Below are positions 44,943-59,354 of a stretch of DNA of 64,000 bases, in pieces. Source of the stretch: Lachnospiraceae bacterium. GTDB taxonomy: Bacteria > Bacillota > Clostridia > Lachnospirales > Lachnospiraceae. The stretch covers positions 56,390-120,389 of the forward strand of contig JAGBMJ010000010.1 of assembly GCA_017634975.1 (NCBI GenBank), read 5' to 3'. Positions within the stretch are counted from its first letter, which is position 1. The number at the start of each line of letters is the position of its first letter. The translations under genes were made by a program, and so were the position numbers. The notes under the pieces are model-generated. The model ran no database searches. It saw only the letters and a program-made list of their open reading frames with translations, and was not told the DNA's origin.

Positions 44943-46587
44943 CCTCCCTGCCCTGCGGGAACATAAGCAGTCCGCAGTTATATAATGCTGAAAAACAGAT
45001 CACATAAGCCGGATAGCACAGTGACTCCGTCATCATCGCAAACATATACAGGGCACTCATCAAAAGCGGAAATGTCAATGCCTTTCGCAGACTGCGACGT
45101 TTCCGATACGTCCATACCGCCGTCACAAATGCACCGGCTACCAGCATCGCATACGCCAGCCCGGTCAGGATGCCAAACTGATAGATCATCTGCAGATAAC
45201 TGTTATGCGCATGATAGATCAGTTTTCCTTCTTCGATCTCAATATGTCCGGGATAATGCCCCGCTAACGTGATCCGTCCCAGATATGCTTTCCAGATCTC
45301 CGTGCGGCCGTTCGTCACATCCCTCTCCGGATCGATCTCCACTTTCTTTTCCTGCTCCGTGATGCCGCCTTCCCCATGACCGAAATCTACCATGATCCCC
45401 CATTTTCCGAGGGCAAGACGCAGATATTCCGTAATCGAGGTATATTTCGGTGAATCCACCGGATCCCCTTTGATGACACGCCGCTCCGGATTAAACTCCG
45501 CATACAGTGCCGTCGGGTTGTCCGCATAAGCCGGTATGTAACGGATCGCCAGATAGCCCGGAACCACCGCCGCCAAAAGCAGAACGACAGCAAGCAGATA
45601 ACGTAACACAACCTTCTTTTTTTTCTGCTCCGTAAGCATACGCAGAACAAACAGTACAAAATAGGCAAACAAGAGTCCAAGGATCGTGGTACGTGTATAA
45701 TTATATATGATCAGAATACCGGTCCAGACAAAAAACACGTAATTCAGGAACAGTGCCGGTATCCGTTTGGAACGATTTTTCTGTGCCCTCGCTCTTGCGA
45801 TCCTTCCCGCCATCACCGCGGAAATGCATGCCAGATAACCTCCGGCATTGTTGGAATTGGAAAAATAGGTCAGATAACGTTCCGTATCATACGGCCGGTG
45901 CAGCAGACACTGGTAACTTACGTAGAACAGGGAAAGCAGCGCGGCATCCAGAAACGCATCCGTAAACATCCGCACTCTGCCTTCTTTTTTGGCAACCGAC
46001 AGCATATAGTAAAATGCACTGTATCCGACCACGAAAAAGCCCTCGTAGGAATACCCTGGATTAAAGACGGTAAACAGCACTGCAAACGCGATATATACGA
46101 TCCACAGGATCTTCTGCGGCCGCAGTTTTGCCGGAGCTTCTTTTTTCCGAACCAGCCTGCTGAGTCTGCCCGGATGCAGGATCAGATCCCGCAGTATTGC
46201 GATGAAAATCAGCCCCCAGACCAGGATCACCAGTTTCCCCAGGCGGATCACATCCGCAAACTCATAATTACAAAGATCCGGGATCCAGTGTTTCTGGTAT
46301 GCAAAATGACAAACCAGATAGCAGACCGGCAAATAGATCCCGGACCATATGGTCAGCCAGAACTCGACCGGAAAACCGGCCAGCACCATCCCGCCGAATG
46401 CCACGCAGAACCTGCGGAATGCCACCACCTGTCCGTAATTGTCTCCCGCATTCATAAATGAAATGCCGGAACAGATGGCAAAATACAAACAAAGGATCAA
46501 AACCGGCCTGCGCCAGACAGCTTCCCCGATCAGTTTTGTTTTACACCATTGCAGCAGCTCTGCCGGTGTCCGTTCTTCTTTCTTCAT
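44929..46587 (-). CDS. Wzy/O-antigen-ligase-like membrane protein
   Basis: A 552-residue protein with about twelve helices and one large outside loop (about residues 360-455) holding NGRTEIWKAY and HAHNSYLQMIYQFGI. These segments are the PF04932-type signature of O-antigen polymerases and ligases. It would polymerise repeat units outside the membrane or attach the finished glycan to its carrier; the signature does not separate the two. Its last codons lie in an intergenic repeat. Start overlaps the GtrB-like gene by four bases. Confidence 0.83.
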   Translation of the reverse strand: MKKEERTPAELLQWCKTKLIGEAVWRRPVLILCLYFAICSGISFMNAGDNYGQVVAFRRFCVAFGGMVLAGFPVEFWLTIWSGIYLPVCYLVCHFAYQKHWIPDLCNYEFADVIRLGKLVILVWGLIFIAILRDLILHPGRLSRLVRKKEAPAKLRPQKILWIVYIAFAVLFTVFNPGYSYEGFFVVGYSAFYYMLSVAKKEGRVRMFTDAFLDAALLSLFYVSYQCLLHRPYDTERYLTYFSNSNNAGGYLACISAVMAGRIARARAQKNRSKRIPALFLNYVFFVWTGILIIYNYTRTTILGLLFAYFVLFVLRMLTEQKKKKVVLRYLLAVVLLLAAVVPGYLAIRYIPAYADNPTALYAEFNPERRVIKGDPVDSPKYTSITEYLRLALGKWGIMVDFGHGEGGITEQEKKVEIDPERDVTNGRTEIWKAYLGRITLAGHYPGHIEIEEGKLIYHAHNSYLQMIYQFGILTGLAYAMLVAGAFVTAVWTYRKRRSLRKALTFPLLMSALYMFAMMTESLCYPAYVICFSALYNCGLLMFPQGREEASL

Positions 46588-47549
46588 GCTTTATCATCGG
46601 AAGACGGAGCTTTTTCCGCCGCATCCTTCTTTACGATCTGTTTAATGATATACTGTGGTGAGGCGTTCATACTGATATAGATCCGTCCCACATACTCTCC
46701 GATCAGCCCCAGCATGATCATGATCATACCGCCGAAAAACACCAGGATCGCCACAAGAGATGCAAATCCCATCACACGGTCCGGCAGCACAAAATGCTGG
46801 ATGATGATCACGATGCCGTAGAGAAAACCGGCCAATGCACTGATCACCCCCATTACCGTAGCGATCCGCAGCGGCTTCACCGAAAACGAGGTAAATCCGT
46901 TCATCCACAGCCCCAGCAGTTTCTTTAATGTATAGCCGGACTCTCCCACTTCACGGTTTCTATGGTTGATATCCACATTTACGATATTCTTCGTTGCCCG
47001 CAGTACCAGCCCGATCACATAGGGATAGGAGTTTTCGTAACGGATCATGTCATCTACGATATAACGTTTGGCTGCAAAATAACTGGACACATACAGGGTC
47101 TTTGGCTTATCCAGCATAACCTCCGCCATCTTTTCATTCACAAAACTGCCGAAATTGCGAAACAGGGAATGTTTCTTATGGCTGTACCTCGCATACGCCA
47201 CGTCTGCTCCGTTTTCCAAGGCCTCCAGCAGCTTATCCGCCTCATCCGCCGGCGTCTGTCCGTCGTCATCCAGACAGATCACGATTTCGCCCTTTGTCTG
47301 ACGCAGCCCCGCCATCAGCGCAGAATGCTGGCCGAAATTACGTGCAAAATCGATCGCCGTAATGCGTGCATCCTCCAGCGCCATCTTTTTGATCACGTCA
47401 AAAGTCTCATCCGGGGAACAGTCATTCACCAGGATGATCTCGTAGTCATATTTTTTCAGGGATTGCATTTTTTCCCGGATCTCCGCTACCACATCGCCGA
47501 TCGTCTGCGATGAGCGATAGCAGGGGATCACGTAGCTGATCATCTGCAT
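46584..47549 (-). CDS. GtrB/ArnC-like polyprenol-phosphate glycosyltransferase
   Basis: A DPM1-like GT2 enzyme with SYVIPCYRSSQTIG at the start, NDCSPDET (42-49), CLDDDGQTP (92-100) and NFGQHSALMAG, a typical GtrB/ArnC segment. Two helices (about 230-255 and 265-290) anchor it before a short charged tail. It would make polyprenyl-phosphate-glucose or a similar donor for the GtrII-like protein two genes on. The open frame reaches upstream into the GNAT gene; ATG 47549 has AAGGA nine bases ahead, and ATG 47558 overlapping the previous stop is an alternative. Confidence 0.87.
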   Translation of the reverse strand: MQMISYVIPCYRSSQTIGDVVAEIREKMQSLKKYDYEIILVNDCSPDETFDVIKKMALEDARITAIDFARNFGQHSALMAGLRQTKGEIVICLDDDGQTPADEADKLLEALENGADVAYARYSHKKHSLFRNFGSFVNEKMAEVMLDKPKTLYVSSYFAAKRYIVDDMIRYENSYPYVIGLVLRATKNIVNVDINHRNREVGESGYTLKKLLGLWMNGFTSFSVKPLRIATVMGVISALAGFLYGIVIIIQHFVLPDRVMGFASLVAILVFFGGMIMIMLGLIGEYVGRIYISMNASPQYIIKQIVKKDAAEKAPSSDDKA

Positions 47550-47554
47550 CGTTA

Positions 47555-48124
47555 TCATTCCTTCTGTGTCCGGTACGGATCCGTACACTTCATAAATATG
47601 ATCTTTCTGCGGATCCCGTCCAGCACGGCTTCCTCCGTCCGCTCCGGACAGATGGTAAACCCGCAGTTTTCATAGGAGCGGATCGCCCGCTCATTATGGG
47701 ATAAAGCCCGCAGCGTCACTTCCTTAAGCCGCATTTCACGAAAGGCATATTCCAGTGCCAGTTTCAGCACCTCGGTCCCGTAATTTTTTCCCAGAGCATC
47801 CGCCTCGCCGATAAAGATCCCAAACTCCGCACTCTCCGCTTCCGGATCGATATGGGAAAAATACTGACTGCCGATCTCGCGGCCATCTTCTTTCAATCCG
47901 ATGATAAACTGCTCGACCCGGCCGGTGCCCACCTGTTCGGCCAGCCACTTTTCATGGTCGGAGCGGGTCACTTCTGCCCGGTAGATAAACCACTCCACGA
48001 CATGCCGCATATTCCGCCAGCGGAGGATCTTATCCGTATCCGCCTCCGTGATGCGGCGCAGATACACGCGTTCCCCTTCGATCCGCGGGATGCGTGCGAT
48101 CCGTTCTTTTTGTTCTTCTGTCAT
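47555..48124 (-). CDS. GNAT N-acetyltransferase (RimJ/RimL-like; PseH- or WecD-like role possible)
   Basis: A 189-residue GNAT enzyme with VYLRRITEADTDKILRWRN at the start, FGIFIGEADALGKNYGTE as the acetyl-CoA loop region and SYENCGF near the end. Glycan-locus members of this group acetylate the 4-amino group of nucleotide-linked aminodeoxysugars (PseH, WecD). It lies two genes after the WecE-like aminotransferase and in the same unit as PseF/PseG, so either sugar could be the substrate. GGAG lies six bases before the ATG. Confidence 0.82.
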   Translation of the reverse strand: MTEEQKERIARIPRIEGERVYLRRITEADTDKILRWRNMRHVVEWFIYRAEVTRSDHEKWLAEQVGTGRVEQFIIGLKEDGREIGSQYFSHIDPEAESAEFGIFIGEADALGKNYGTEVLKLALEYAFREMRLKEVTLRALSHNERAIRSYENCGFTICPERTEEAVLDGIRRKIIFMKCTDPYRTQKE

Positions 48125-48166: not shown

Positions 48167-50014
48167 TTACTGCTTTCCTGTACGATAGATGGCAAATGTA
48201 CCGCTTTTCGCCCCTGCAGTCTGCAGATCAGACGCTTCGTTGCCGACCGCATCCTCCTGTATAAGCCGCAGGCCATACCTCTCCTGCAGAAAACGTTCCA
48301 TCCGCCACGGCTCCAGGCCAACCCAGCTCCGGCTTTCCGTACCTTCCAGCATTTGCCACAACAACAACGGGTTGTTGCTCTCAAAGACAAGAGCCGCGCC
48401 CTCTTTTGCAAACACCTCCTGCGCATCCGCGTATCCGAAAGCGCGTAATTTCTGTGCCTGCAGCGGACTGCCATACAGCCAGCCGCCAAGCAGCATCATA
48501 TTCCGTTCCGTATCGTTACGCCGAAATACCGGCGCGGTGCGGTTTACGGCAGCGGATGTTTCCAGCAGAAACAATTTCTGCGGGTGCTGCGCCATATAAG
48601 AGTATACCACATCATCCAGTTTATTAACAGATGTTTGTTCCCGGTACCCCACATAGGCATCGGAAGAGACCGGGATCAGCGCCAGCAGCATAATGACTGC
48701 CGGCATCAGACAAACGCTGCGCCATCCGGCGCGCTCCTCTTTTCGCCCCTCTGCTTTTTCCCGGGCAGATGGTTTCCGAAGCATCGCCAGCAGCAGAAAG
48801 ATCTCTGCCATATACAGTGACAGCGTGACCCGTTCCGGAGCACGTCCGCGCCAGAGCAGCCAGCCGTAGATCACAACATGCATACACCCGCAGCCCGCAA
48901 GCAGCGGCAAAAAACGGTATTTCTTTTCCTTGAGGAAGGTCACTGCCGCGATCCCATACAGAAGAAGCAGGATATACGCATAAGGAAAATCGCTGTTGCC
49001 CTGCATCTTCAGGGTACGCATCCGCAAATCGTAGAGTACGTTTTTCAGCTTCTGTCCATCCGATACCGCCCGGGATGGTTCCCGAAAGGATGCCATCTGC
49101 TCCAGGCGCTCTGCCGTGACCGTCGCATCCGGCAGCAGATCATAACGGCGGTACAGGGGATACGCCGTATCCGTAACTCCGCACTCCCCGTAAAACGCTC
49201 TGGCTTCGTCGCTCTCCCAGACCAGGGTGAAATCGTACAGATCCGTTCTGGCCCGGTTCAGCTTAAGATACGCCTGCCAGTCCGCACTGTGGTAAGCCAG
49301 GGAATGCAGACCAAGCAATACCAGCCAGACTGCCGCAAAGGCGCCCCCTAGCGGAAGTTCCTTCTTTAAGCGTATGCCGCCTTCCTCCCGCAAAAAAACA
49401 TAGAGAAGCGCTGCGCAAAGAAACGGCAGCAGCAGAAAGAATACCTGGGAACGGATCTGGTCGCAGAGCAGCAAAAGCCCCATCGGAGGAAGCAGCTGCC
49501 GGATACGTTCCCGCGTGGTTTCGGTCCTGCTGCCGCTAAGCAGCAGAAACAGTGCCGTGGCCCCCGCACAGGCCGCCACCAATGTATAATGCAGCCGCCA
49601 GAACAGCGGCAGCAGAAACAGCCAGATCATTACGATCACCGGCAGATACCGCAAAGCCGGCGAAGGCTCGTCCTTCCCTGCGGCCGCAACACTGCGCAGC
49701 AGCAAAAATGCGCACAGAAGAACCGTAGCGCACAAAAAGATGCCAAACCAGGGAAGCATCGGTAAAATACGATAAAGTAATGATAACAAAAAAGAAAGCG
49801 GTGCACGCAGATACACCGTATGCAGATCGGGTGTGCCGCTGTAGGCCCCCGAAAGAACAGAGGCGATCTGAAGATCATCATTCATACCATACAGCGGCGG
49901 TGCAGCCAGCAGCAGGATCACAAAAGGAACTGCAGTGACCGCTCCTGCCCGGAAAAGCTGCTTTCGGGATATCGTTTGCTTCTGTTTCTCACCCATAGTA
50001 TCCTTGCCGGACAT
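48167..50014 (-). CDS. Large polytopic membrane protein, putative GT-C
   Basis: A 615-residue protein with about eleven helices and a soluble C-terminal domain of about 130 residues. After the first helix comes YGMNDDLQIASVLSGAY, with Asp46/Asp47 in the position of the catalytic acids of GT-C enzymes. DUF6056 and GtrII proteins in this locus show the same arrangement. The ATG overlaps the previous stop as TAATG, and AAGGAG lies eleven bases upstream. I cannot assign a named family. Confidence 0.65.
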   Translation of the reverse strand: MSGKDTMGEKQKQTISRKQLFRAGAVTAVPFVILLLAAPPLYGMNDDLQIASVLSGAYSGTPDLHTVYLRAPLSFLLSLLYRILPMLPWFGIFLCATVLLCAFLLLRSVAAAGKDEPSPALRYLPVIVMIWLFLLPLFWRLHYTLVAACAGATALFLLLSGSRTETTRERIRQLLPPMGLLLLCDQIRSQVFFLLLPFLCAALLYVFLREEGGIRLKKELPLGGAFAAVWLVLLGLHSLAYHSADWQAYLKLNRARTDLYDFTLVWESDEARAFYGECGVTDTAYPLYRRYDLLPDATVTAERLEQMASFREPSRAVSDGQKLKNVLYDLRMRTLKMQGNSDFPYAYILLLLYGIAAVTFLKEKKYRFLPLLAGCGCMHVVIYGWLLWRGRAPERVTLSLYMAEIFLLLAMLRKPSAREKAEGRKEERAGWRSVCLMPAVIMLLALIPVSSDAYVGYREQTSVNKLDDVVYSYMAQHPQKLFLLETSAAVNRTAPVFRRNDTERNMMLLGGWLYGSPLQAQKLRAFGYADAQEVFAKEGAALVFESNNPLLLWQMLEGTESRSWVGLEPWRMERFLQERYGLRLIQEDAVGNEASDLQTAGAKSGTFAIYRTGKQ

Positions 50015-51171
50015 TACCGGTAAAACTCCTTAACCTTATCAACGATATACGCCGTCTGTTCTTCGGTCAGACCATAGAAAAGCGGCAGTCTGGTCAGGCG
50101 TTCGCTTTCCTTTGTCGTATACACGTCTTCCCCTGCAAAACGCCCGTATTTCTTACCGGCCGGTGCCGAATGCAGCGGAATATAATGGAACACCGAGAGA
50201 ATATTATTTGCCTTCAGGTGATCGATCAGTGCCGTGCGTTCTTCCTGATCATGCGCCTTGACATAGAACATATGCGCATTGTGCACGCATCCCTCCGGCA
50301 CTACCGGCAGTTCCAGCTTCCCGGCATCTGCGAGTGGCTTTAATCCGGCATAATAAGTATCCCAGATCTTTCTTCTGGCTTGATTGATCTCGTCAGCGAT
50401 CTCCAGCTGCGCATACAGATAGGCTGCATTCATATCACTGGGCAGATAAGACGAGCCCACCTCCTGCCAGGTATATTTATCGATCTGTCCGCGCAGGAAG
50501 CGGCTGCGATCTGTTCCTTTTTCCCGAACGATCTCGGCCATCTCAATAAAACGGTCATCCCGCATAAGAAGTGCCCCGCCTTCGCCCATACTGTAGTTCT
50601 TGGTCTCATGGAAACTGTAGCACCCCAGATCCCCGATGGTGCCAAGTGCCCGCCCCTTATAGGTTGCCATCACGCCCTGCGCCGCGTCTTCCACTACATA
50701 CAGATCATGCTTTTTGGCAATCTCCATGATCGTATCCATCTCACAGGCCACTCCGGCGTAATGCACCGGCACGATGGCTTTGGTCTTTTCCGTGACCGCT
50801 GCTTCGATCTTTGTCTCATCAATGTTCATCGTATCCGGCCGGATATCCACAAATACCGCCTTTGCACCACGCAATACAAATGCATCTGCCGTGGAAACAA
50901 AGGTAAAGGAAGGCATGATCACCTCATCCCCTTCTTTGATATCCAGAAGGATTGCTGCCAGTTCCGTCGCATGGGTGCATGATGTGGTCAACAGGCACTT
51001 TTTCGCCTGCGTCCGCTCTTCAAACCATACATTGCACTTTTTGGTAAAGACGCCATCTCCGCAGATCTTCTGCGCCTCAATGCACTGTTTGATATAGTCC
51101 AGCTCCTTCCCTGTGTGGGGCGGAACATTAAATTTGATCTGATACTGCTGGTATTCTTTATTCTTTTCCAT
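50014..51171 (-). CDS. wecE: WecE-like dTDP-4-keto-6-deoxysugar 4-aminotransferase
   Basis: A DegT/DnrJ/EryC1-fold PLP enzyme of 385 residues. LLTTSCTHATELAA (60-73), MPSFTFVSTADA (86-97), EDAAQ (161-165) and the PLP lysine Lys191 in SFHETKNYSMGEGG agree closely with RffA/WecE, which makes dTDP-4-amino-4,6-dideoxygalactose from the 4-keto sugar. The frame is open six codons further to 51189, but ATG 51171 has AGGA eleven bases ahead. It overlaps the preceding membrane-protein gene by 14 bases. RmlA and RmlB are not in the window. Confidence 0.9.
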   Translation of the reverse strand: MEKNKEYQQYQIKFNVPPHTGKELDYIKQCIEAQKICGDGVFTKKCNVWFEERTQAKKCLLTTSCTHATELAAILLDIKEGDEVIMPSFTFVSTADAFVLRGAKAVFVDIRPDTMNIDETKIEAAVTEKTKAIVPVHYAGVACEMDTIMEIAKKHDLYVVEDAAQGVMATYKGRALGTIGDLGCYSFHETKNYSMGEGGALLMRDDRFIEMAEIVREKGTDRSRFLRGQIDKYTWQEVGSSYLPSDMNAAYLYAQLEIADEINQARRKIWDTYYAGLKPLADAGKLELPVVPEGCVHNAHMFYVKAHDQEERTALIDHLKANNILSVFHYIPLHSAPAGKKYGRFAGEDVYTTKESERLTRLPLFYGLTEEQTAYIVDKVKEFYR

Positions 51172-52957
51172 ATACAATGAATTCCTCATTCTGATATTCT
51201 ATTTCATAGCCATTATTATATATGAAATCCTGTAATAGGGAATACTTTTTTTGCATATCCCCTGTATAATCCGGCATTTTTGCCGCTGTAACGATCCAAA
51301 AGTCCTGTTCTTGCAGACTCTCCAGCTCTTTTTCCATATCCGTGATCGCATAACTGTCCAGATCCGGCCACAAAGTGGATAATGCCGGTGAAAGTCCCAG
51401 TGCGTAATGCAGGCCGGGCAGATTGCCGTAGGTGAGCATCGTCTTTTCCGGTGCCTGCTGCAGCTGTGTCGTGATCCCCTCGATCGCCTGTTGATGGGCT
51501 GCCGATGTATGCATCCCGCGCAAAACGGCATTCTCCGTGATCACCGCATCTCTGCTGCTGCCGTCCTCACCGTCCTTAAATACATAGATACTGCCAAACA
51601 GCACGCTCTGAACCAGAAACAGCACAATAAAAGCATAGAACATATACCGCAGCGGCAGATACCGGCTTTTCCTTTCCTGGGCCTGTATCCAGCGCCCCAG
51701 CAAATATATGCCGATGGGTACCGTCAGAAACAGTTGGTTCAGCACCGCATACAGATGATTGTTACTGCCCAGAGGCGCTGCCAGCAAGGCCAGCAGGGCA
51801 AAGAGGGCCAGTTCTTTTTCTTTACGCAGCAGCATCTTATGGCAGAACGGAGAAGCCACATACACAAACAACAGCAGCAGGATCCATAGCAGTATCGTTC
51901 CGATCCCATAGAACGCACCGTTGTTATGATAATTGACCGTAAATACACCGTTGCGGTAATACCAGACAAACAAAAGGGCTGCGCCGCACAGATACAGCAG
52001 CGTTTTGACCGCCACAAACTTTTTCTTCTGAATGCGAAACATCAGGGTCCCCAGCAGAATTCCCGCCAGCATCGGCAAAAACCATTTGGCACCGAACAGA
52101 TAACCTCCGACGATGCTCTTTAGCATCCCGCCCATAGAATAACCGCCGGCATCTCCTGCCTGCGAAGTGAACAGACTGCCTACCCAGCCAAACATCCCGG
52201 TCACACCGCTCACTGCCCCCTGTATGCCGCCCACACTTGCTTCCGATCCCAGCAAAAGCAGAAATGCCGCTGCCACACCGCAGATATAGCCGCCGATACA
52301 AAGCCCTGTTGCTTTTGCAATCTCTTTGAATGAATGACGATTCTCTGCCAGATGACAGCAGACGAACAGGATCCAGATGCAATAGACCAGATTGGAGATA
52401 CGCACTAACACAGCGATCCCCAGCACCACACCGGCCAGGAACAGATTTTTTCTTTGTTCCGTTTCCGACCAGTGCCAGAGCAGCAGGCCGGCGCCAACAA
52501 ACAAAAGATATGACAGGTAATTATACAGGATCACCGTAGGGCACCAGCACAGGCCCAGGGCAATCAACTCTCCCGGAAACAGGATCACCGGAGAGATACG
52601 TTTCCTGAATACAAAATAAACCGAAAGAGCGGTTGCAAGCGGCAAAAGACGCGTCAGCACATTCATCCGCAGGAGGCTTCCGCCGGTGATCTTCATGAAA
52701 AGATGCCCGCACAGATTGGCCAGATAAGTGGCATAGATCCAGTCCCCCTTAAGCTGTCCGAACTGCTCATAATTTCCCAGACTGTACGTGGTATCCGTCA
52801 GATCTGCCCCCTGATTGACACCGAGAAAAGCGAAGACCACCAGCAAGGCCGGGAATACAAACCTTTCCATCTGAGGCAGCCGCAACATTTCCGACATGCT
52901 CTGATAAAGCTTTCTAATACTATTCGGTTCCTTTTCTCCCGACTGTGGCGCTGCCAT
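51158..52957 (-). CDS. Large polytopic membrane protein, putative GT-C
   Basis: A 599-residue protein with about eleven to twelve helices and a C-terminal soluble domain from about residue 470. The loop after the first helix has NQGADLTDTTYSLGN with Asp52 and Asp55, a GT-C-like acidic site. It resembles uncharacterised membrane proteins from Firmicute glycan loci. The ATG overlaps the GtrA stop as TAATG. Glycosyltransferase function is an inference from topology and context. Confidence 0.65.
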   Translation of the reverse strand: MAAPQSGEKEPNSIRKLYQSMSEMLRLPQMERFVFPALLVVFAFLGVNQGADLTDTTYSLGNYEQFGQLKGDWIYATYLANLCGHLFMKITGGSLLRMNVLTRLLPLATALSVYFVFRKRISPVILFPGELIALGLCWCPTVILYNYLSYLLFVGAGLLLWHWSETEQRKNLFLAGVVLGIAVLVRISNLVYCIWILFVCCHLAENRHSFKEIAKATGLCIGGYICGVAAAFLLLLGSEASVGGIQGAVSGVTGMFGWVGSLFTSQAGDAGGYSMGGMLKSIVGGYLFGAKWFLPMLAGILLGTLMFRIQKKKFVAVKTLLYLCGAALLFVWYYRNGVFTVNYHNNGAFYGIGTILLWILLLLFVYVASPFCHKMLLRKEKELALFALLALLAAPLGSNNHLYAVLNQLFLTVPIGIYLLGRWIQAQERKSRYLPLRYMFYAFIVLFLVQSVLFGSIYVFKDGEDGSSRDAVITENAVLRGMHTSAAHQQAIEGITTQLQQAPEKTMLTYGNLPGLHYALGLSPALSTLWPDLDSYAITDMEKELESLQEQDFWIVTAAKMPDYTGDMQKKYSLLQDFIYNNGYEIEYQNEEFIVYGKE

Positions 52958-53406
52958 TACTGTTCCTTCTTTGCTTCGGGTTCTTCTTTTTTCTCCAAAA
53001 ACTTCTTCCGTGTCACAAAATTGTAGACCATGACCACACCGGTTGCCACAATCTTTGACACGGCCGTCGCCGGATTCTCCGAGATCAGCTGATTCAGCCG
53101 GTTCCAGTTCGCATAGATCACATCCATACAGATATAGAGGATCACCTCGTTGATCACGAGGCCGCCTGCGCTGAGCGCCACAAAGATCACAAACTCTTTC
53201 CTGCGATCCATATCTTCCTTGCGTTCAAAAACAAATTTAAAGCTCAGTATATAATTGAATACTACTGAGACAAGAAAACCGCAAAAACCGGCCACAAGAT
53301 AATGGACACCGATCACTTTCAGCAGCATCGTAACGCCCATATCGATCACAAAGCAGATCCCGCCAACTGCTCCGAATTTTATGATCTGTTGAAATAATTT
53401 ATTCAT
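52957..53406 (-). CDS. GtrA family membrane protein
   Basis: A 149-residue protein with four helices and the GtrA features KFGAVGGICFVIDMGV near the start, LVSVVFNYILSFKFVF after helix two and VATGVVMVYNFVTRKKF at the end. GtrA proteins are thought to flip polyprenyl-phosphate sugars so a GtrII-type enzyme can use them. GtrB (46.6 kb) and GtrII-like (43.3 kb) are in the same unit, and a second GtrA domain ends the fusion protein at 54.5-56.6 kb. The frame is open to 53475 but that part overlaps the epimerase; ATG 53406 fits the family start. Confidence 0.85.
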   Translation of the reverse strand: MNKLFQQIIKFGAVGGICFVIDMGVTMLLKVIGVHYLVAGFCGFLVSVVFNYILSFKFVFERKEDMDRRKEFVIFVALSAGGLVINEVILYICMDVIYANWNRLNQLISENPATAVSKIVATGVVMVYNFVTRKKFLEKKEEPEAKKEQ

Positions 53407-53447
53407 GCTCTTTTTCTTACATTCTCCTATCGAATCGTCTCCGTATT

Positions 53448-54530
53448 TTATTTCCGGTTCCACATACCGTACCATTCCGCAAACTTACGCAGTCCCTCGC
53501 GCAAAGGTGTGGAAGGTTTGAAACCATAATCCCGCTCCAGCACCGAGGTATCGGCATAGGTCACAGCCACATCGCCGGGCTGCATCGGCAGCAGTTCTTC
53601 GTGCGCCTGCAGGTCAAAGTCCTTCGGCAATACCTCCACACGGATCAGTTCTTCCGCCAGGATCCCGATGAACTCCATCAGATCTACCGGTGAAGAATTT
53701 CCGATATTGTATACCGCATACGGCGGAACCGGCAGTCCGTCTTCCCCGGTCACACGCTCCGGCGCTCCCTGCATTACCAGCCGGATACCTTCGGTCACAT
53801 CGTCCACAAAGGTAAAGTCCCGCTTGCAGTTGCCGTAATTGAAGACCTTGATCTTCTCCCCGTTCCGCAGTTTCTCCGAAAAACCGAAGTATGCCATATC
53901 CGGGCGTCCGGCCGGTCCGTAAACCGTGAAGAAACGCAGGCCCGTTGACGGGATCTGGTACAGCTTACTGTATGCGTGTGCCAGCAGCTCGTCGGTCTTT
54001 TTGGTCGCCGCATAAAGCGACACCGGTTTCTCTGTCGGATCCTCCGTACTGTATGGGATTTTTGCATTGGCTCCGTAAATAGACGAACTGGAAGCATACA
54101 CGAGATGCTCCACGCCCTCTGCCCCGTCATCATAACTGTGCCGGCAGGCTTCCAGAATATTATAAAAACCGATCACATTAGCTTCGATATAAGCGTCCGG
54201 ATTCTCAATAGAATAACGTACCCCTGCCTGTGCCGCCAGATTGACCACGACCTGAAAACGATACTCCGCAAACAGCTTTCTGACCAGCTCCGCATCTGCG
54301 ATATTTCCCTTCACAAACTGCCAGCTGCAGGAGGAACGCGCCGCTGCTTCTTCGATCTGCTGCAGACGGTACTCCTTGATCGACACGTCATAATAGTCGT
54401 TTACGCTGTCCAGTCCGATGATCTGCGTGCCGTCGCACTCCGCAAGCAGCCGCAGTACCAGGTTCGCCCCGATAAAACCCGCGGCGCCCGTTACCAGTAT
54501 CGTACTGTGATCCAGATCAAGCTTTTTCAT
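53448..54530 (-). CDS. UDP-glucuronate 4-epimerase
   Basis: A 360-residue extended SDR with VTGAAGFIGANL (13-24), catalytic Tyr173/Lys177 in YAATKK and LAAQAGVRYSIENP (98-111), the hallmark of GAE/Cap1J-type UDP-glucuronate 4-epimerases; VYGPAGRPDMAY is also specific to them. It makes UDP-galacturonate from UDP-glucuronate. GAGGAG lies seven bases before the ATG, which is inside the last codons of the fusion gene. With UDP-xylose synthase at 3.7-4.6 kb it shows that the cell spends UDP-GlcA on two sugars of this glycan. Confidence 0.88.
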   Translation of the reverse strand: MKKLDLDHSTILVTGAAGFIGANLVLRLLAECDGTQIIGLDSVNDYYDVSIKEYRLQQIEEAAARSSCSWQFVKGNIADAELVRKLFAEYRFQVVVNLAAQAGVRYSIENPDAYIEANVIGFYNILEACRHSYDDGAEGVEHLVYASSSSIYGANAKIPYSTEDPTEKPVSLYAATKKTDELLAHAYSKLYQIPSTGLRFFTVYGPAGRPDMAYFGFSEKLRNGEKIKVFNYGNCKRDFTFVDDVTEGIRLVMQGAPERVTGEDGLPVPPYAVYNIGNSSPVDLMEFIGILAEELIRVEVLPKDFDLQAHEELLPMQPGDVAVTYADTSVLERDYGFKPSTPLREGLRKFAEWYGMWNRK

Positions 54531-56559
54531 CTGACTGCTCCTCTTTCGCCGGTTTCTTAAACACCAGTAATTTACTCAAAATATAATTCAGCACGATGAT
54601 CACGATACTGACGATCACGTATTTTGCCAGAATTTCATTTACATGCAGTACCACGACCAGCAAAAGCATCAAACCTTCATCCACGCCGAAGGAAAACAGA
54701 CGCGCTCCCACAAACGCCGCAAACTCTTTCGCTACTTCCCTGCATCCTGTCTTAGTACTGTGGAATACAAAGATACGGTTGGTGATATAGGCAAAGATCA
54801 CGGAAAAGACCCAGGATACCGCATTGGCCAGCCCCACACGGACAGCCTCCTCCATCTCTGCAAATACCCCTTTGGCAAAGATCGCATAGGTCACCCAGGC
54901 CACGACGGTCGTCAAAAAACCGACGATCAGGTAATCCCACACTTCCTTCTTTGCAAAGTAGATGCCCATCGCCCAGTCGATCAGTTTTTCCATCTGATCA
55001 AAGAACAGACTGCGTAAGGCATCCACGAGAATGCCCACGATAAAGATGATCAGAACCGACAGGAGCATATGCAGGATACGTGCCGGGCCGTAGGCCTTGT
55101 TTACCCCCAGCCACTCCGGCCACGCATACCGCAGCAGCAGATGCTCATGCAGCAGATATACGCCAAAGGTATACGGCGCTATGCGCGCCAATACATCCAT
55201 CACCAGATTCTTCTTCGGTTTCCGGTTCACAAAAAAGCAGAACAGGCCGACCGATGCGCAAAGAACCAGGATATGGTTATAGTCATCCAAAGTCGTCAGC
55301 AGATAAGCAAAGCCCTGATCCAAAAAACCAAGCCGGAACGGCTCACCTTTTGCAGTGGCTTCTGCTGCCGACTCCACAACCATATGCCGCAGCCCGCCCG
55401 CCACGAGCATTCCAACCGGGATCAGCACTACAGAGATCACGTAACATAACAAACACTTTTTCCCGTTAGCAAGGAACGGGATCCCGTGCAGCCGGATATA
55501 GGCCGCCAGGATGTACAGGCAAAGGAACCACAGGATACTGACACCATGATCGTCCATTGCCAGTTCTGCCGGAACCAGTGATTTCGGCAGGCTGATCAGA
55601 CACAGGATCGCAATAAGCAGCGTCATATGCTGCTGCTTTGACATCTTTTTGACTGCCGCTCCCAGAAACGGCGAGAACAGATACATCAGAAGATATGCAC
55701 TTGCAAACCAGTAGTGATTGTTCACCACCGGCAGAAAGAAATACTGCAGATTGTAAAAATTCAGATACGTTCCCCTGTCTGCGATCCCTGTGATCAGGCA
55801 GATCGCCGCCACCAGAACGCTGTAAAAGAAGACTTCACACCACAATTTCACCAGACGGCGCAGGGTAAAGCGGCTGTCGACCAGAAAATACCCGCTGATC
55901 ATCACATAGAGATTGACCGATACCAGACAGAATGCCTCCAGGAACCAAAAAGCAAGGTTGCTCCCGCTGTGATCCCCGTCCAGCCGGTGCAAAAGTCCGC
56001 CCTTATCCAGGTAGTGCAGCATGATCACCATCAGCATGGCAACTACACGCAGCACCTCAAACTTCGCTTCCCGCGGCTTTTTGCTCTGCATTACCACCGT
56101 TGGTCCGTCCAATACCTTCTCAAAGACCAGTTTGGTCTCGTCTTCGGAAACCTTTGTATAGCCCAGATCCTCAAACACCTTACGGGATGCCGCATTCTCC
56201 GGCTTTACTTCCGCGATCAGCGCCGTATACTTCTCGGAAAGTTCCCCTTCCAGCTTTGCAAGCATCTGCTTCGCAATGCCGCGTCCGCGGTATTCCTCCC
56301 CCACACTGTAGCTGATCACACCCTTCTTCGGATCGGACTGTGCCTGTCCGACACGCACCTGCCCCACCGGCAGCAGAAAATCCATGCACACAAAACTGTC
56401 GATGCTGTCCTTTTCCAGCATCCACGCAAACCATTTCTGATGTTCCTCCCAGCCGATCTGCTCGGTGGAAAATGAGGCACTCCGCACCGCCGGATCATTC
56501 GCCCAGCGATAGAATAATTTACAATCGGTCTCTAGTGTTTTTCTCAGATAATATGACAT
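54517..56559 (-). CDS. Three-domain fusion: GNAT acetyltransferase, acyltransferase-3, GtrA
   Basis: One uninterrupted 680-codon frame with three recognisable domains. Residues 1-150 are a GNAT enzyme (LRKTLETDCKLFYRWANDP, then acetyl-CoA loop RGRGIA at 91-96 and RKVFEDLGY) resembling PseH-type sugar N-acetyltransferases. Residues 165-520 are an acyltransferase-3 membrane domain with about ten helices and the R-x10-H motif (Arg171/His182). Residues 540-670 are a GtrA domain with four helices (DYLIVGFLTTVVAW, ITNRIFVFH, LNYILSKLLVFK). It lies between PseF and UDP-GlcA 4-epimerase. It could acetylate a sugar amine inside and an O-position across the membrane; the GtrA part may move the lipid-linked substrate. 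Function is inference. Confidence 0.87.
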   Translation of the reverse strand: MSYYLRKTLETDCKLFYRWANDPAVRSASFSTEQIGWEEHQKWFAWMLEKDSIDSFVCMDFLLPVGQVRVGQAQSDPKKGVISYSVGEEYRGRGIAKQMLAKLEGELSEKYTALIAEVKPENAASRKVFEDLGYTKVSEDETKLVFEKVLDGPTVVMQSKKPREAKFEVLRVVAMLMVIMLHYLDKGGLLHRLDGDHSGSNLAFWFLEAFCLVSVNLYVMISGYFLVDSRFTLRRLVKLWCEVFFYSVLVAAICLITGIADRGTYLNFYNLQYFFLPVVNNHYWFASAYLLMYLFSPFLGAAVKKMSKQQHMTLLIAILCLISLPKSLVPAELAMDDHGVSILWFLCLYILAAYIRLHGIPFLANGKKCLLCYVISVVLIPVGMLVAGGLRHMVVESAAEATAKGEPFRLGFLDQGFAYLLTTLDDYNHILVLCASVGLFCFFVNRKPKKNLVMDVLARIAPYTFGVYLLHEHLLLRYAWPEWLGVNKAYGPARILHMLLSVLIIFIVGILVDALRSLFFDQMEKLIDWAMGIYFAKKEVWDYLIVGFLTTVVAWVTYAIFAKGVFAEMEEAVRVGLANAVSWVFSVIFAYITNRIFVFHSTKTGCREVAKEFAAFVGARLFSFGVDEGLMLLLVVVLHVNEILAKYVIVSIVIIVLNYILSKLLVFKKPAKEEQSDEKA

Positions 56560-56587: not shown

Positions 56588-57274
56588 TTATTGATGCAGC
56601 AGGCGGTATTTCATCTCCGCGATCTCCCAGTCCTTTTCGGTATCGATATCCTGCACATTTTCCTCATCCTGCAGGAACGCTGCAGTGTGCGTCATCACGA
56701 TCCGCCTCTCCTTCAGAAAGGCTTCCGTGCGCAGACAGTAAAACTGGCCACAGTCGTGGTACTCCGGCTCCAGATCCTGGGAACGCTTCAGCTGATCTTC
56801 CGGATAATGTGCCGTCAGCTCCCCGTCCCGTAAAAGCAATGCTCTGCGTGGCGGAAACGAAAACTGAACCACCGGCATCACGGTATCCGCGTTTCCTTCC
56901 GTCAGGGTCTTCATTGCCGTCTGCAAAGCTTCTGCCGTCACAAAGGGAGCCGTGGGATAAATGCAACAAAGGGCATCGTAGGAAACGCCCCGTTCTTCAT
57001 ATGCTGCAAGCACCTCCAGCAGCACATCCGCCGTCGTCGAATGATCATCCGCCGTATCTGCACTTCGCAGAAACGGGACTTCGGCTCCGGCTGCTTTTGC
57101 CACCTGTGCGATCTCTTCGTCTTCGGTCGAGACCATCACCGTGTCAAACACACCGCTCTTTAACGCCGCTTCAATAGAGTAGTGGATAATGGGTTTGCCC
57201 AGAAAATCTTTGATGTTCTTTCTCGGTATTCTTTTACTGCCGCCACGGGCAGTGATCACAGCCAATGTCTTCAT
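56588..57274 (-). CDS. pseF: Pseudaminic acid cytidylyltransferase (PseF type)
   Basis: A 228-residue CMP-nonulosonate synthetase. ITARGGSKRIPRKNIKDF (7-24) is the nucleotide-binding loop, then STEDEEIAQVAK, DDHSTTADVLLEVL and CCIYPTAPFV, which together match PseF more than NeuA. It joins CMP to pseudaminic acid or a close relative. Its ATG directly follows the stop of the upstream GT2. Two genes upstream is PseG, but PseB, PseC and PseI are not in the window. Confidence 0.88.
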   Translation of the reverse strand: MKTLAVITARGGSKRIPRKNIKDFLGKPIIHYSIEAALKSGVFDTVMVSTEDEEIAQVAKAAGAEVPFLRSADTADDHSTTADVLLEVLAAYEERGVSYDALCCIYPTAPFVTAEALQTAMKTLTEGNADTVMPVVQFSFPPRRALLLRDGELTAHYPEDQLKRSQDLEPEYHDCGQFYCLRTEAFLKERRIVMTHTAAFLQDEENVQDIDTEKDWEIAEMKYRLLHQ

Positions 57275-58315
57275 CTATTTTCGTACCTTCTTTACCAAAC
57301 CGCGATATGCAAATAATACCACATAATAAACAAAAAACAACAGATTGGACTTCAGATGCATCTTCACCAGCTTCCGGTCTTCGGCCGGCACCAGCTTCTG
57401 AAAATACGGATTCTCCGGCAGCTCCGGATATTCCGCAAGGATCATCTTCCGCAGATACGCCGTATTGCCGGGTTTGCGGTGTTTTCCGCTGTACATATAC
57501 GAAAAGAGAGTCGTGATGTAGGCCAGCTCCGAAAAACGAAACATGACCTCCTCCTGATATGCCTCCGGCAGTTTTCTTTCCCGGTACTCCGAAAGCAATC
57601 GTTCTCCCGCTTTTACACGGTCGCAGCATTTCTCCCAGCTCACGTGATGTGTCGTGGAATCCGCCACCGTAAGATAATAATACAGTGGCTCCGGTACCCG
57701 CTCAAAATGCGTGAAATACATCGACCAAAGCGGTGATGCACAATTATCTTCATAGAAGATTCCTTCCGGAAACGTCAGGTGGTTCCGGCTCAACAGCTCT
57801 CTTTTGTAGATCTTTACCACCATACTGCCGGAGCGCAGGATCCATTTTTTATGCTTTTCCGTATCCAGAAGACCCGTCTGTTCGGGTGTATTGTTCTCAA
57901 CCACCTGCCCCGGAGTAAAACCGTATTCCGTCACCAGCGAATAATCACAGCCCACGACATCGGCTCCGGTCTCTTCTGCCTTCCGCAGCAGTTTCTCATA
58001 CATCTGCGGATCCACGAAATCATCACTGTCCACAAAACCGATCCATTCGCCCTTTGCCACCGCCAGCCCGCGGTTCCGCGCACCGCCCTGCCGGTGGTTC
58101 TCCGCACACAGGATCGTCCGAAAACGCCCGGGATGCTCTTTTGCAAGCCGCGCTTCATATTCCTGCAGGATCTGCGGAGATGCATCCGTCGACGCATCAT
58201 CCACGGCGATGATCTCAAAATCCTCCGCGGTCTGCGCCAGCAGAGAATCCAGGCAATGCTTCAGTTTGTCCTCTCCGGCCATGTTATAGACCGGTACGAT
58301 AATGGATAAAAGCAT
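57275..58315 (-). CDS. GT2 family glycosyltransferase
   Basis: A 346-residue GT2 enzyme with LLSIIVPVYNMAGEDKL at the start, VDDASTDASP and VDSDDFVDP (DxD at 96-98). It lies between PseG and PseF, so transfer of or next to the nonulosonate is possible, though GT2 enzymes do not usually use CMP-sugars. A GTG three codons upstream is also in frame; ATG 58315 gives the usual family N-terminus. Donor unknown. Confidence 0.86.
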   Translation of the reverse strand: MLLSIIVPVYNMAGEDKLKHCLDSLLAQTAEDFEIIAVDDASTDASPQILQEYEARLAKEHPGRFRTILCAENHRQGGARNRGLAVAKGEWIGFVDSDDFVDPQMYEKLLRKAEETGADVVGCDYSLVTEYGFTPGQVVENNTPEQTGLLDTEKHKKWILRSGSMVVKIYKRELLSRNHLTFPEGIFYEDNCASPLWSMYFTHFERVPEPLYYYLTVADSTTHHVSWEKCCDRVKAGERLLSEYRERKLPEAYQEEVMFRFSELAYITTLFSYMYSGKHRKPGNTAYLRKMILAEYPELPENPYFQKLVPAEDRKLVKMHLKSNLLFFVYYVVLFAYRGLVKKVRK

Positions 58316-58316
58316 A

Positions 58317-59354
58317 TTATTCACTCAAAAGGGCCCGCGCGATACGCTCCGCCCCTCTGCCATCGGTCAGTCTCCGTAGACGTTTTGACATCTCTCTTCG
58401 CAGAGCCGCATCCCGCATCTGTTCCAGCTGTTTTTGTAATGTTTCTTTCGAAAAACCGTCAATATGGATATATCCGGCAAACAGAAACAGATCTCTTTTT
58501 GCAAAAGCTTCCGCATTCGGGATCTGATTGTCTGCGAGCGCATAACAAATCCCCGGCGTTCCGGTCGCCGCCAGTTCATACAATGTCGTGCCTGCTGCCG
58601 TAATAGCCAGATCGCTGTTTTGCAGCGCCGCCTTCAGGTTCGGGATCGGGCCGCATATCGTGACATTTTCCAGTGCCTCTGCCATACGCTTCAGCTCCGG
58701 CAGATCCGGATCGAGTGCTCCCGCGATCAGGGTAAACCTTATCTCCCGCCATGCGGTCTGCTCTGCGACCAGCTTCAGAAACTGCGGCAGAAAGTGCACC
58801 GGATCGGTCCCGCCGCTTACCACCAGCACTTCTTTCAGATCTTCGCGGATATCATGTTCCGGAAGATCCCGGTAGATCCGGTTCATCGGCATATACGTCT
58901 CCCCCAGAAGAAGCTGTGCCCCCGGGTATTCTTTCACATAATCATAATCCTCTGCATACATCCCGTAACAGATCAGCGTATCACACGACCAGATCCTCTC
59001 ATGCAGATCATCGATATATGCCGTCCTTACAAGCTTTGACATCGCCTGCAGATAGGTATCGGACACAAAATAACTGTCGATCAGATATACCGCATCGTCA
59101 CGTTCACGGATGCCCTGTTCCCTGAGTTTTTCCCCGATCAAAGGCACTTCGGAATCAAATGCATCAAAAGGGCGGTTCAGGCACCATACCGGATAGCCCG
59201 CCTCCTGCGGCAGGCGCACGGAGATCTCCTCCGCCACAATAAACAGCACCTCCGCTCCATGCTCTCTTGCGGCCTCTGCGATATTTAAGCATCTGCGCAT
59301 ATGCCCGGTCGCCGTTGCTGCATTTGCTTCCGTACGGATCACTAACCTGCGCAA
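58317..59354 (-). CDS. pseG: PseG-like UDP-sugar hydrolase of pseudaminic acid synthesis
   Basis: A 345-residue GT-B-like hydrolase with VIRTEANAATATGHMRRCL at the N-terminus, where His18 matches catalytic His17 of Campylobacter PseG, and VSGGTDP plus ITAAGTTLYELAATGTPGI for UDP binding. It would release 2,4-diacetamido-2,4,6-trideoxy-altrose from UDP for the next, PseI, step. In many relatives PseG is fused to the GNAT domain PseH; here none is attached. The start is TTG 59354, four bases after the mutase stop; GTG 59342 is an alternative. Confidence 0.83.
   Translation of the reverse strand: MRRLVIRTEANAATATGHMRRCLNIAEAAREHGAEVLFIVAEEISVRLPQEAGYPVWCLNRPFDAFDSEVPLIGEKLREQGIRERDDAVYLIDSYFVSDTYLQAMSKLVRTAYIDDLHERIWSCDTLICYGMYAEDYDYVKEYPGAQLLLGETYMPMNRIYRDLPEHDIREDLKEVLVVSGGTDPVHFLPQFLKLVAEQTAWREIRFTLIAGALDPDLPELKRMAEALENVTICGPIPNLKAALQNSDLAITAAGTTLYELAATGTPGICYALADNQIPNAEAFAKRDLFLFAGYIHIDGFSKETLQKQLEQMRDAALRREMSKRLRRLTDGRGAERIARALLSE

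Follow-up and report, generated by a model that had tools for sequence, protein, structure and literature searches.

A probably genus-specific protein joining GNAT, AT3 and GtrA domains in a nonulosonate locus of a Lachnospiraceae bacterium

Why should one bacterial polypeptide join a GNAT acetyltransferase domain to an acyltransferase-3 (AT3) domain and a GtrA flippase domain, and do the three act on the same sugar? The question is raised by a gene in a stretch of 64,000 nucleotides from a Lachnospiraceae bacterium (assembly GCA_017634975.1, contig JAGBMJ010000010.1, positions 56,390 to 120,389 of the forward strand), referred to at its full length as the window. Comparison with other genomes leads us to regard the protein as a likely genus-specific fusion of three enzymes, which in relatives are the products of neighbouring genes in one surface-glycan locus. 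It probably combines a divergent PseH, an enzyme of the pseudaminic-acid (pse) pathway to a sialic-acid-like surface sugar (nonulosonate), with a membrane module that may well O-acylate an undecaprenyl-linked sugar. The gene and its domains are as follows:

54517..56559, minus strand: GNAT-AT3-GtrA fusion of 680 amino acids, a single ATG-started open reading frame with Pfam matches
56110..56559, minus strand: GNAT domain (residues 1-150) of predicted divergent PseH type (Pfam, tree, AlphaFold2 model)
55027..56064, minus strand: Acyl_transf_3 (AT3) domain (residues 166-511; Pfam, alignment, hydropathy)
54559..54933, minus strand: GtrA domain with four hydrophobic segments (residues 543-667; Pfam, hydropathy, tree)

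A three-domain protein of one genus

An earlier note on this DNA had read the gene as one uninterrupted frame carrying these three domains, and both statements hold: the frame is intact at exactly these positions, and each segment exceeds its Pfam gathering score, with 48.8 bits for PF13302 (GNAT) at residues 5-135 (cut-off 25.4), 99.6 bits for PF01757 (Acyl_transf_3) at residues 166-511 (cut-off 31) and 66.9 bits for PF04138 (GtrA) at residues 543-667 (cut-off 26.1). Hydropathy analysis yields 14 hydrophobic segments: residues 172-513, in the AT3 part, hold ten of them, and the other four fall within residues 544-666, in the GtrA part. The AlphaFold2 model of residues 1-150 has a mean pLDDT (predicted local distance difference test) of 95.0 and a pTM (predicted template modelling score) of 0.86. 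An internal start at Met157 may additionally yield AT3-GtrA alone.

To place the fusion within its genus, we used 35 genomes of one Lachnospiraceae genus, the window's genome included. An AT3-GtrA match is present in 34 of them; only G009, a genome of 72% completeness that gives no PseI or PseG match either, is without one. Of these 34 genomes, 22 carry an intact GNAT (21 if G008, whose GNAT is interrupted by a run of N, is left out), 6 a truncated and 1 a decayed one, and 5 have none. The fusion is therefore not a sequencing error, and a chance joining of two genes is ruled out by the recurrence of the architecture across the genus. Two sheep omasum and rumen metagenome-assembled genome records filed as Lachnospiraceae bacterium (L022, L023) match the genus members G032 and G021.

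The three-domain order appears to be confined to this genus: In a scan that scored no more than two candidates from each genome, no other open frame joining GNAT, AT3 and GtrA was found among 394 Lachnospiraceae genomes of other genera (397 family genomes in total) or among 397 further genomes of the phylum (398 in total), and the protein is thus not one of many with this architecture. Neither this fusion nor AT3-GtrA was found described in the portions of the literature covered by our search. Several candidates were inspected and set aside: AT3 matches that extend past the domain through stop codons in G264, G185 and G442 are AT3 domains without a fused GtrA (the G185 frame is cut off by a contig end), and two very long frames are an AT3 joined to a large membrane protein behind a GNAT-PseG protein (G253, locus L216) and a GtrA-YfhO protein (G237). 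The latter (L217:4778-7810, 1011 amino acids, from another Lachnospiraceae genome) joins a flippase to a candidate transferase.

The N-terminal GNAT and the PseH step

The earlier note had proposed that the GNAT could be a missing PseH, and two lines of evidence support this prediction. First, a PseH above the curated cut-off of the NCBI model TIGR03585 occurs in none of the 35 genus genomes; matches to PseF are present in all 35 (34 over cut-off), to PseI in 34 (33), to PseG in 34 (27) and to PseB in 31 (30). Second, relatives of the fused GNAT reside in pse loci: A search of the 398 phylum genomes with residues 1-149 (E ≤ 1e-14) returned 12 places outside the genus, and 11 of these are pse loci in which the GNAT lies beside PseI or is fused to it, among them five PseG-GNAT proteins, one GNAT-PseI and one GNAT-formyltransferase. 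L146 is the one place without a pse locus, and L140 shows PseG and PseI only. The 11 phylum genomes with a GNAT of the fused type do not overlap with the 11 that carry a canonical PseH over the cut-off; L139 additionally carries a weaker canonical-like GNAT. In two distant loci (L024, L025), PseG-GNAT proteins likewise adjoin PseI.

A tree of 59 GNATs, which includes 14 of the 22 intact fused ones, separates the fused and pse-locus GNATs from canonical PseH together with GNAT2, a separate acetyltransferase of the window, with a support of 100/100; the fused GNATs form one group (99/92). The alignment follows the same division: R69 is found in 34 of 35 rows on the fused and pse-locus side and in 0 of 34 on the other, F129 in 33 of the 34 rows with a residue there and in 2 of 34, respectively. 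On account of this two-sided tree and residue pattern we consider the GNAT to resemble PseH in role but to stand outside TIGR03585. The column of H. pylori Tyr138, the proposed general acid, holds Phe in 19 of the 20 fused GNATs that have a residue there; of the 10 canonical rows in the same alignment, just 3 show Tyr. Membership in a second GNAT clade is well supported by these sequence comparisons, and the predicted function, supply of the missing PseH step, is likewise well supported by comparison.

Among known proteins, PseH itself (TIGR03585; C. jejuni structure 4xpk; H. pylori, PMC4363471) shares the Pfam GNAT fold, the nonulosonate-locus setting and, for the most part, the H40, W43 and N122 columns. 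The fused GNAT differs in scoring 31.8 bits against the cut-off of 93.1, in lying on the opposite side of the 100/100 branch and in being joined to membrane domains. The PseG-GNAT proteins (L139, L140, L141, L143, L144, L024, L025) and GNAT-PseG (L216) contain a related GNAT, but their partner is PseG, not AT3 or GtrA. The best sequence match of the fused GNAT among solved structures is MJ1062 (PDB 3eo4), an uncharacterised GNAT that stands alone. Its neighbourhood we take to be pse-like.

Within the window, all neighbouring genes considered here lie on the strand of the fusion:

58317..59354, minus strand: PseG, UDP-sugar hydrolase (TIGR03590, 154.7 bits, barely over the cut-off of 153.55)
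57275..58324, minus strand: family-2 glycosyltransferase (same BLAST cluster as a relative in L032 that matches PF00535)
56588..57274, minus strand: PseF, pseudaminic acid cytidylyltransferase (TIGR03584, 295.6 bits, cut-off 205.7)
53448..54530, minus strand: NAD-dependent sugar epimerase/dehydratase (PF01370)
52957..53475, minus strand: second, separate GtrA of another subfamily (PF04138; tree)
51158..52957, minus strand: c1TM, large membrane protein without Pfam match, candidate GT-C transferase
50014..51189, minus strand: WecE, dTDP-4-amino-4,6-dideoxy-sugar transaminase (TIGR02379, 657.7 bits, cut-off 434.85)
48167..50014, minus strand: c3TM, large membrane protein without Pfam match
47555..48124, minus strand: GNAT2, separate acetyltransferase (TIGR03585, 73.3 bits, below cut-off; groups with canonical PseH in the tree)
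46584..47588, minus strand: GtrB-like family-2 glycosyltransferase (same BLAST cluster as a relative in L032 that matches PF00535)

The fusion gene starts 28 bases past the end of PseF, PseG is the second gene upstream of PseF, and the 3' end of the fusion shares 14 bases with the epimerase/dehydratase gene. The nonulosonate setting that had been read from PseF and PseG is thus borne out, both profiles being over their cut-offs.

How the GNAT came to vary is suggested by an AT3-GtrA tree of the 34 genomes, rooted with AT3s of other genera, which contains four changes of GNAT state. Apparently, the GNAT was acquired once and afterwards lost or degraded on four occasions, with AT3-GtrA retained, an order of events in keeping with the single group of fused GNATs. 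Lone GNATs of the fused-GNAT clade are found only in G003, G017, G026 and G034 (genus genomes, E ≤ 1e-10), that is, in 4 of the 12 genomes without an intact fused GNAT and in 0 of the 22 with one (Fisher p = 0.011); in G017 the lone GNAT adjoins a separate AT3 gene. The association is no more than suggestive of a relocated PseH.

A number of observations weigh against the PseH assignment. The fused GNAT stays well below the cut-off of the PseH model and is outscored on it by GNAT2. PseC, the enzyme that produces the substrate of PseH, is matched in 26 of the 35 genomes but exceeds its cut-off in only 19 and in none of the window's nearest relatives G006, G010, G021 and G032; it does not track the GNAT, being over the cut-off in 12 of the 22 genomes with an intact GNAT and in 6 of the 12 without. 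PseB, PseC and PseI of the window's genome sit on contigs other than that of the fusion. As to the lone GNATs, their association covers just 2 of the 4 tree events (sign test p = 0.5), their neighbours are not pse genes, and the genomes with a truncated GNAT are without such a replacement. The chief counterevidence is that in G029 and G030, where no GNAT2 is seen at the main locus, PseF has a GNAT2-like gene as its immediate neighbour; GNAT2 could therefore be the working PseH there or everywhere.

These points bring up an exchange of roles, in which GNAT2 would be the working PseH and the fused GNAT would acylate an amino sugar, either the one made by WecE or a different one; the higher score of GNAT2 (73.3 versus 31.8 bits) and its grouping with canonical PseH also speak for this. 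We nevertheless hold it to be unlikely: of the 22 unfused AT3 loci from other genera, 11 contain GNAT2, and in 6 of those 11 the stretch shows no pse gene, whereas relatives of the fused GNAT sit in pse loci at 11 of 12 places, where WecE is the best reference for no gene. Moreover, in the locus L213 of another genus a complete pse block includes a GNAT related to the fused one, and GNAT2 is absent.

The membrane module and its coupling to the GNAT

The AT3 part resembles the O-acyltransferases OafA, OafB, Lag1 and OatA in its Pfam domain, an R-x10-H motif, an ISG motif and ten hydrophobic segments. Of the 34 fusion proteins, 31 were aligned, and all of these have R171-x10-H182 in the first membrane helix; R-x10-H is essential in OafA (PMC7448272). 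The RxxR motif expected in AT3 loop 2-3 is absent from residues 156-525, where R230-x3-R234 is found instead. The AT3 fusion partners named in the literature consulted are SGNH, racemase or NRF domains; the main texts of two papers (PMC9558356, PMC12423673) do not mention GNAT or GtrA. The GtrA part shares its Pfam domain, four segments and a GtrB-like enzyme in the locus with the GtrA/GtcA undecaprenyl-phosphate-sugar flippases. These are usually small separate proteins (PMC7389260), whereas here GtrA is the C-terminal domain of a larger protein.

Where the module comes from is indicated by 22 loci with an unfused AT3, from 22 genomes among the 46 of other genera that gave a match; they comprise 20 loci plus L150 and L154, were chosen as the best-scoring ones plus G255 and G264 and not at random, and six of the stretches are cut by a contig end. 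These loci contain c1TM (21), WecE (18), c3TM (14), the GtrB-like gene (13), GNAT2 (11), an adjacent separate GtrA (10) and at least one pse gene (11). In the GtrA tree, 9 of the 10 GtrAs that adjoin an unfused AT3 cluster with the fused one, and the separate GtrA of the window falls in another subfamily. GtrA lies ahead of AT3 in the unfused loci and behind it in the fusion. Tree and gene neighbourhood thus trace the AT3 and GtrA parts to separate adjacent genes of a conserved surface-glycan locus. The most likely role of the AT3-GtrA part is to modify and export a sugar bound to the membrane.

In three other Lachnospiraceae genera (L203, L213, L216), PseB, PseC, PseF, PseI, a GNAT relative and PseG run directly into AT3, followed by c1TM, WecE and c3TM; these GNATs were seen among the AT3 loci inspected. 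In L203 and L213 a formyltransferase is the fusion partner of the GNAT. In L216 its partner is PseG, and the resulting GNAT-PseG protein overlaps an AT3-c1TM protein. GNAT2 lies downstream of WecE in L203 and L216 and is absent from L213.

Do the domains then form an assembly line, in which a nonulosonate precursor is finished inside, flipped in its lipid-linked form and O-acylated outside? Such a polypeptide, acting on a single sugar, had been envisaged in the earlier note. Their physical fusion speaks for it, as do the pse gene in 11 of 22 unfused AT3 loci, the three pse blocks leading straight into AT3, and the AT3 protein Lag1, which is linked to the acetylation of the nonulosonate legionaminic acid (review PMC9558356). 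The comparison nevertheless does not support this idea, which we judge still less probable than the exchange of roles: On four occasions the GNAT alone apparently disappeared or degenerated and AT3-GtrA persisted, so that the activities need not be coupled; elsewhere AT3 and GtrA are separate and mostly kept with WecE (18 of 22), and a pse gene was not seen in 11 of the 22 stretches, some of them ended by contig ends. Nonulosonates, furthermore, are usually transferred from CMP-sugars, not from undecaprenyl-phosphate. That the fused GNAT is a catalytically idle relic, as its truncation, decay or absence in 12 of 34 genomes might suggest, is very improbable given that N21, H40, W43, G66, R69, R91, N122, S125 and G133 do not vary in an alignment of 23 rows (14 fused, 9 lone) and that the domain is modelled with high confidence.

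Locus variants and a proposed mechanism

Further gene fusions were noted. The row in L216:2164-14148 is compact, with PseB, PseC, PseF, PseI, GNAT-PseG, AT3-c1TM, WecE, c3TM, GNAT2 and a GtrB-like gene. A GNAT joined to a formyltransferase occurs within pse loci at L135:7727-8821, L203:10608-11792 and L213:4586-5725, in L213 next to a PIG-L deacetylase gene, and possibly offers a route to an N-formylated nonulosonate. GNAT2 and a GtrB-like glycosyltransferase share one frame of 501 amino acids in another genus (L209:1438), PseF and PseI share one of 579 amino acids in G001 (L151:6784), and long PseF frames are also present in G019, G025 and G031. A GNAT-FdtA protein adjoins PseC in G014 (L072:9912-10823), with a similar frame in G033 (L073:5175). 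In the window's genome, the over-cut-off PseI (L061:8598, G000:C124) lies amid the housekeeping genes dnaX, recR and phosphofructokinase, and another set of nonulosonate-type genes, at L068 (G000:C93), comprises PseB, PseC and a relative of PseI that stays under the cut-off.

With the fused GNAT as a divergent PseH, the following mechanism can be proposed. The cytoplasmic GNAT would N-acylate the 4-amino group of UDP-4-amino-4,6-dideoxy-L-AltNAc, and PseG, PseI and PseF would then complete the CMP-nonulosonate. The AT3 domain would take acyl groups from acyl-CoA in the cytoplasm and hand them to a sugar outside, and the GtrA domain would flip or present an undecaprenyl-phosphate sugar produced by the GtrB-like enzyme. 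Of the Gtr three-component set, the GtrB-like gene is present at the locus; c1TM and c3TM are without Pfam match. The sugar handled by GtrA would somewhat more likely be the WecE-derived aminosugar than the nonulosonate. Rather than building an obligatory assembly line, the fusion would chiefly tether PseH to a membrane complex and set its dosage.

Quite tentatively, we extend this picture to a complex in which a second type of PseH shares the acyl-CoA pool of the AT3 pore, such that nonulosonate synthesis would be tied in space and dosage to the flipping and O-acylation of lipid-linked sugars of the same glycan; across the phylum, many pse loci without a TIGR03585 member would rely on this PseH type. 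The fusion brings three loosely linked families together at one locus. If a second PseH type is overlooked by the current model, pathways that seem to be without PseH may be complete; and the genetic link of AT3, whose acceptor is often unknown, to a GtrA partner would make the question of that acceptor testable.

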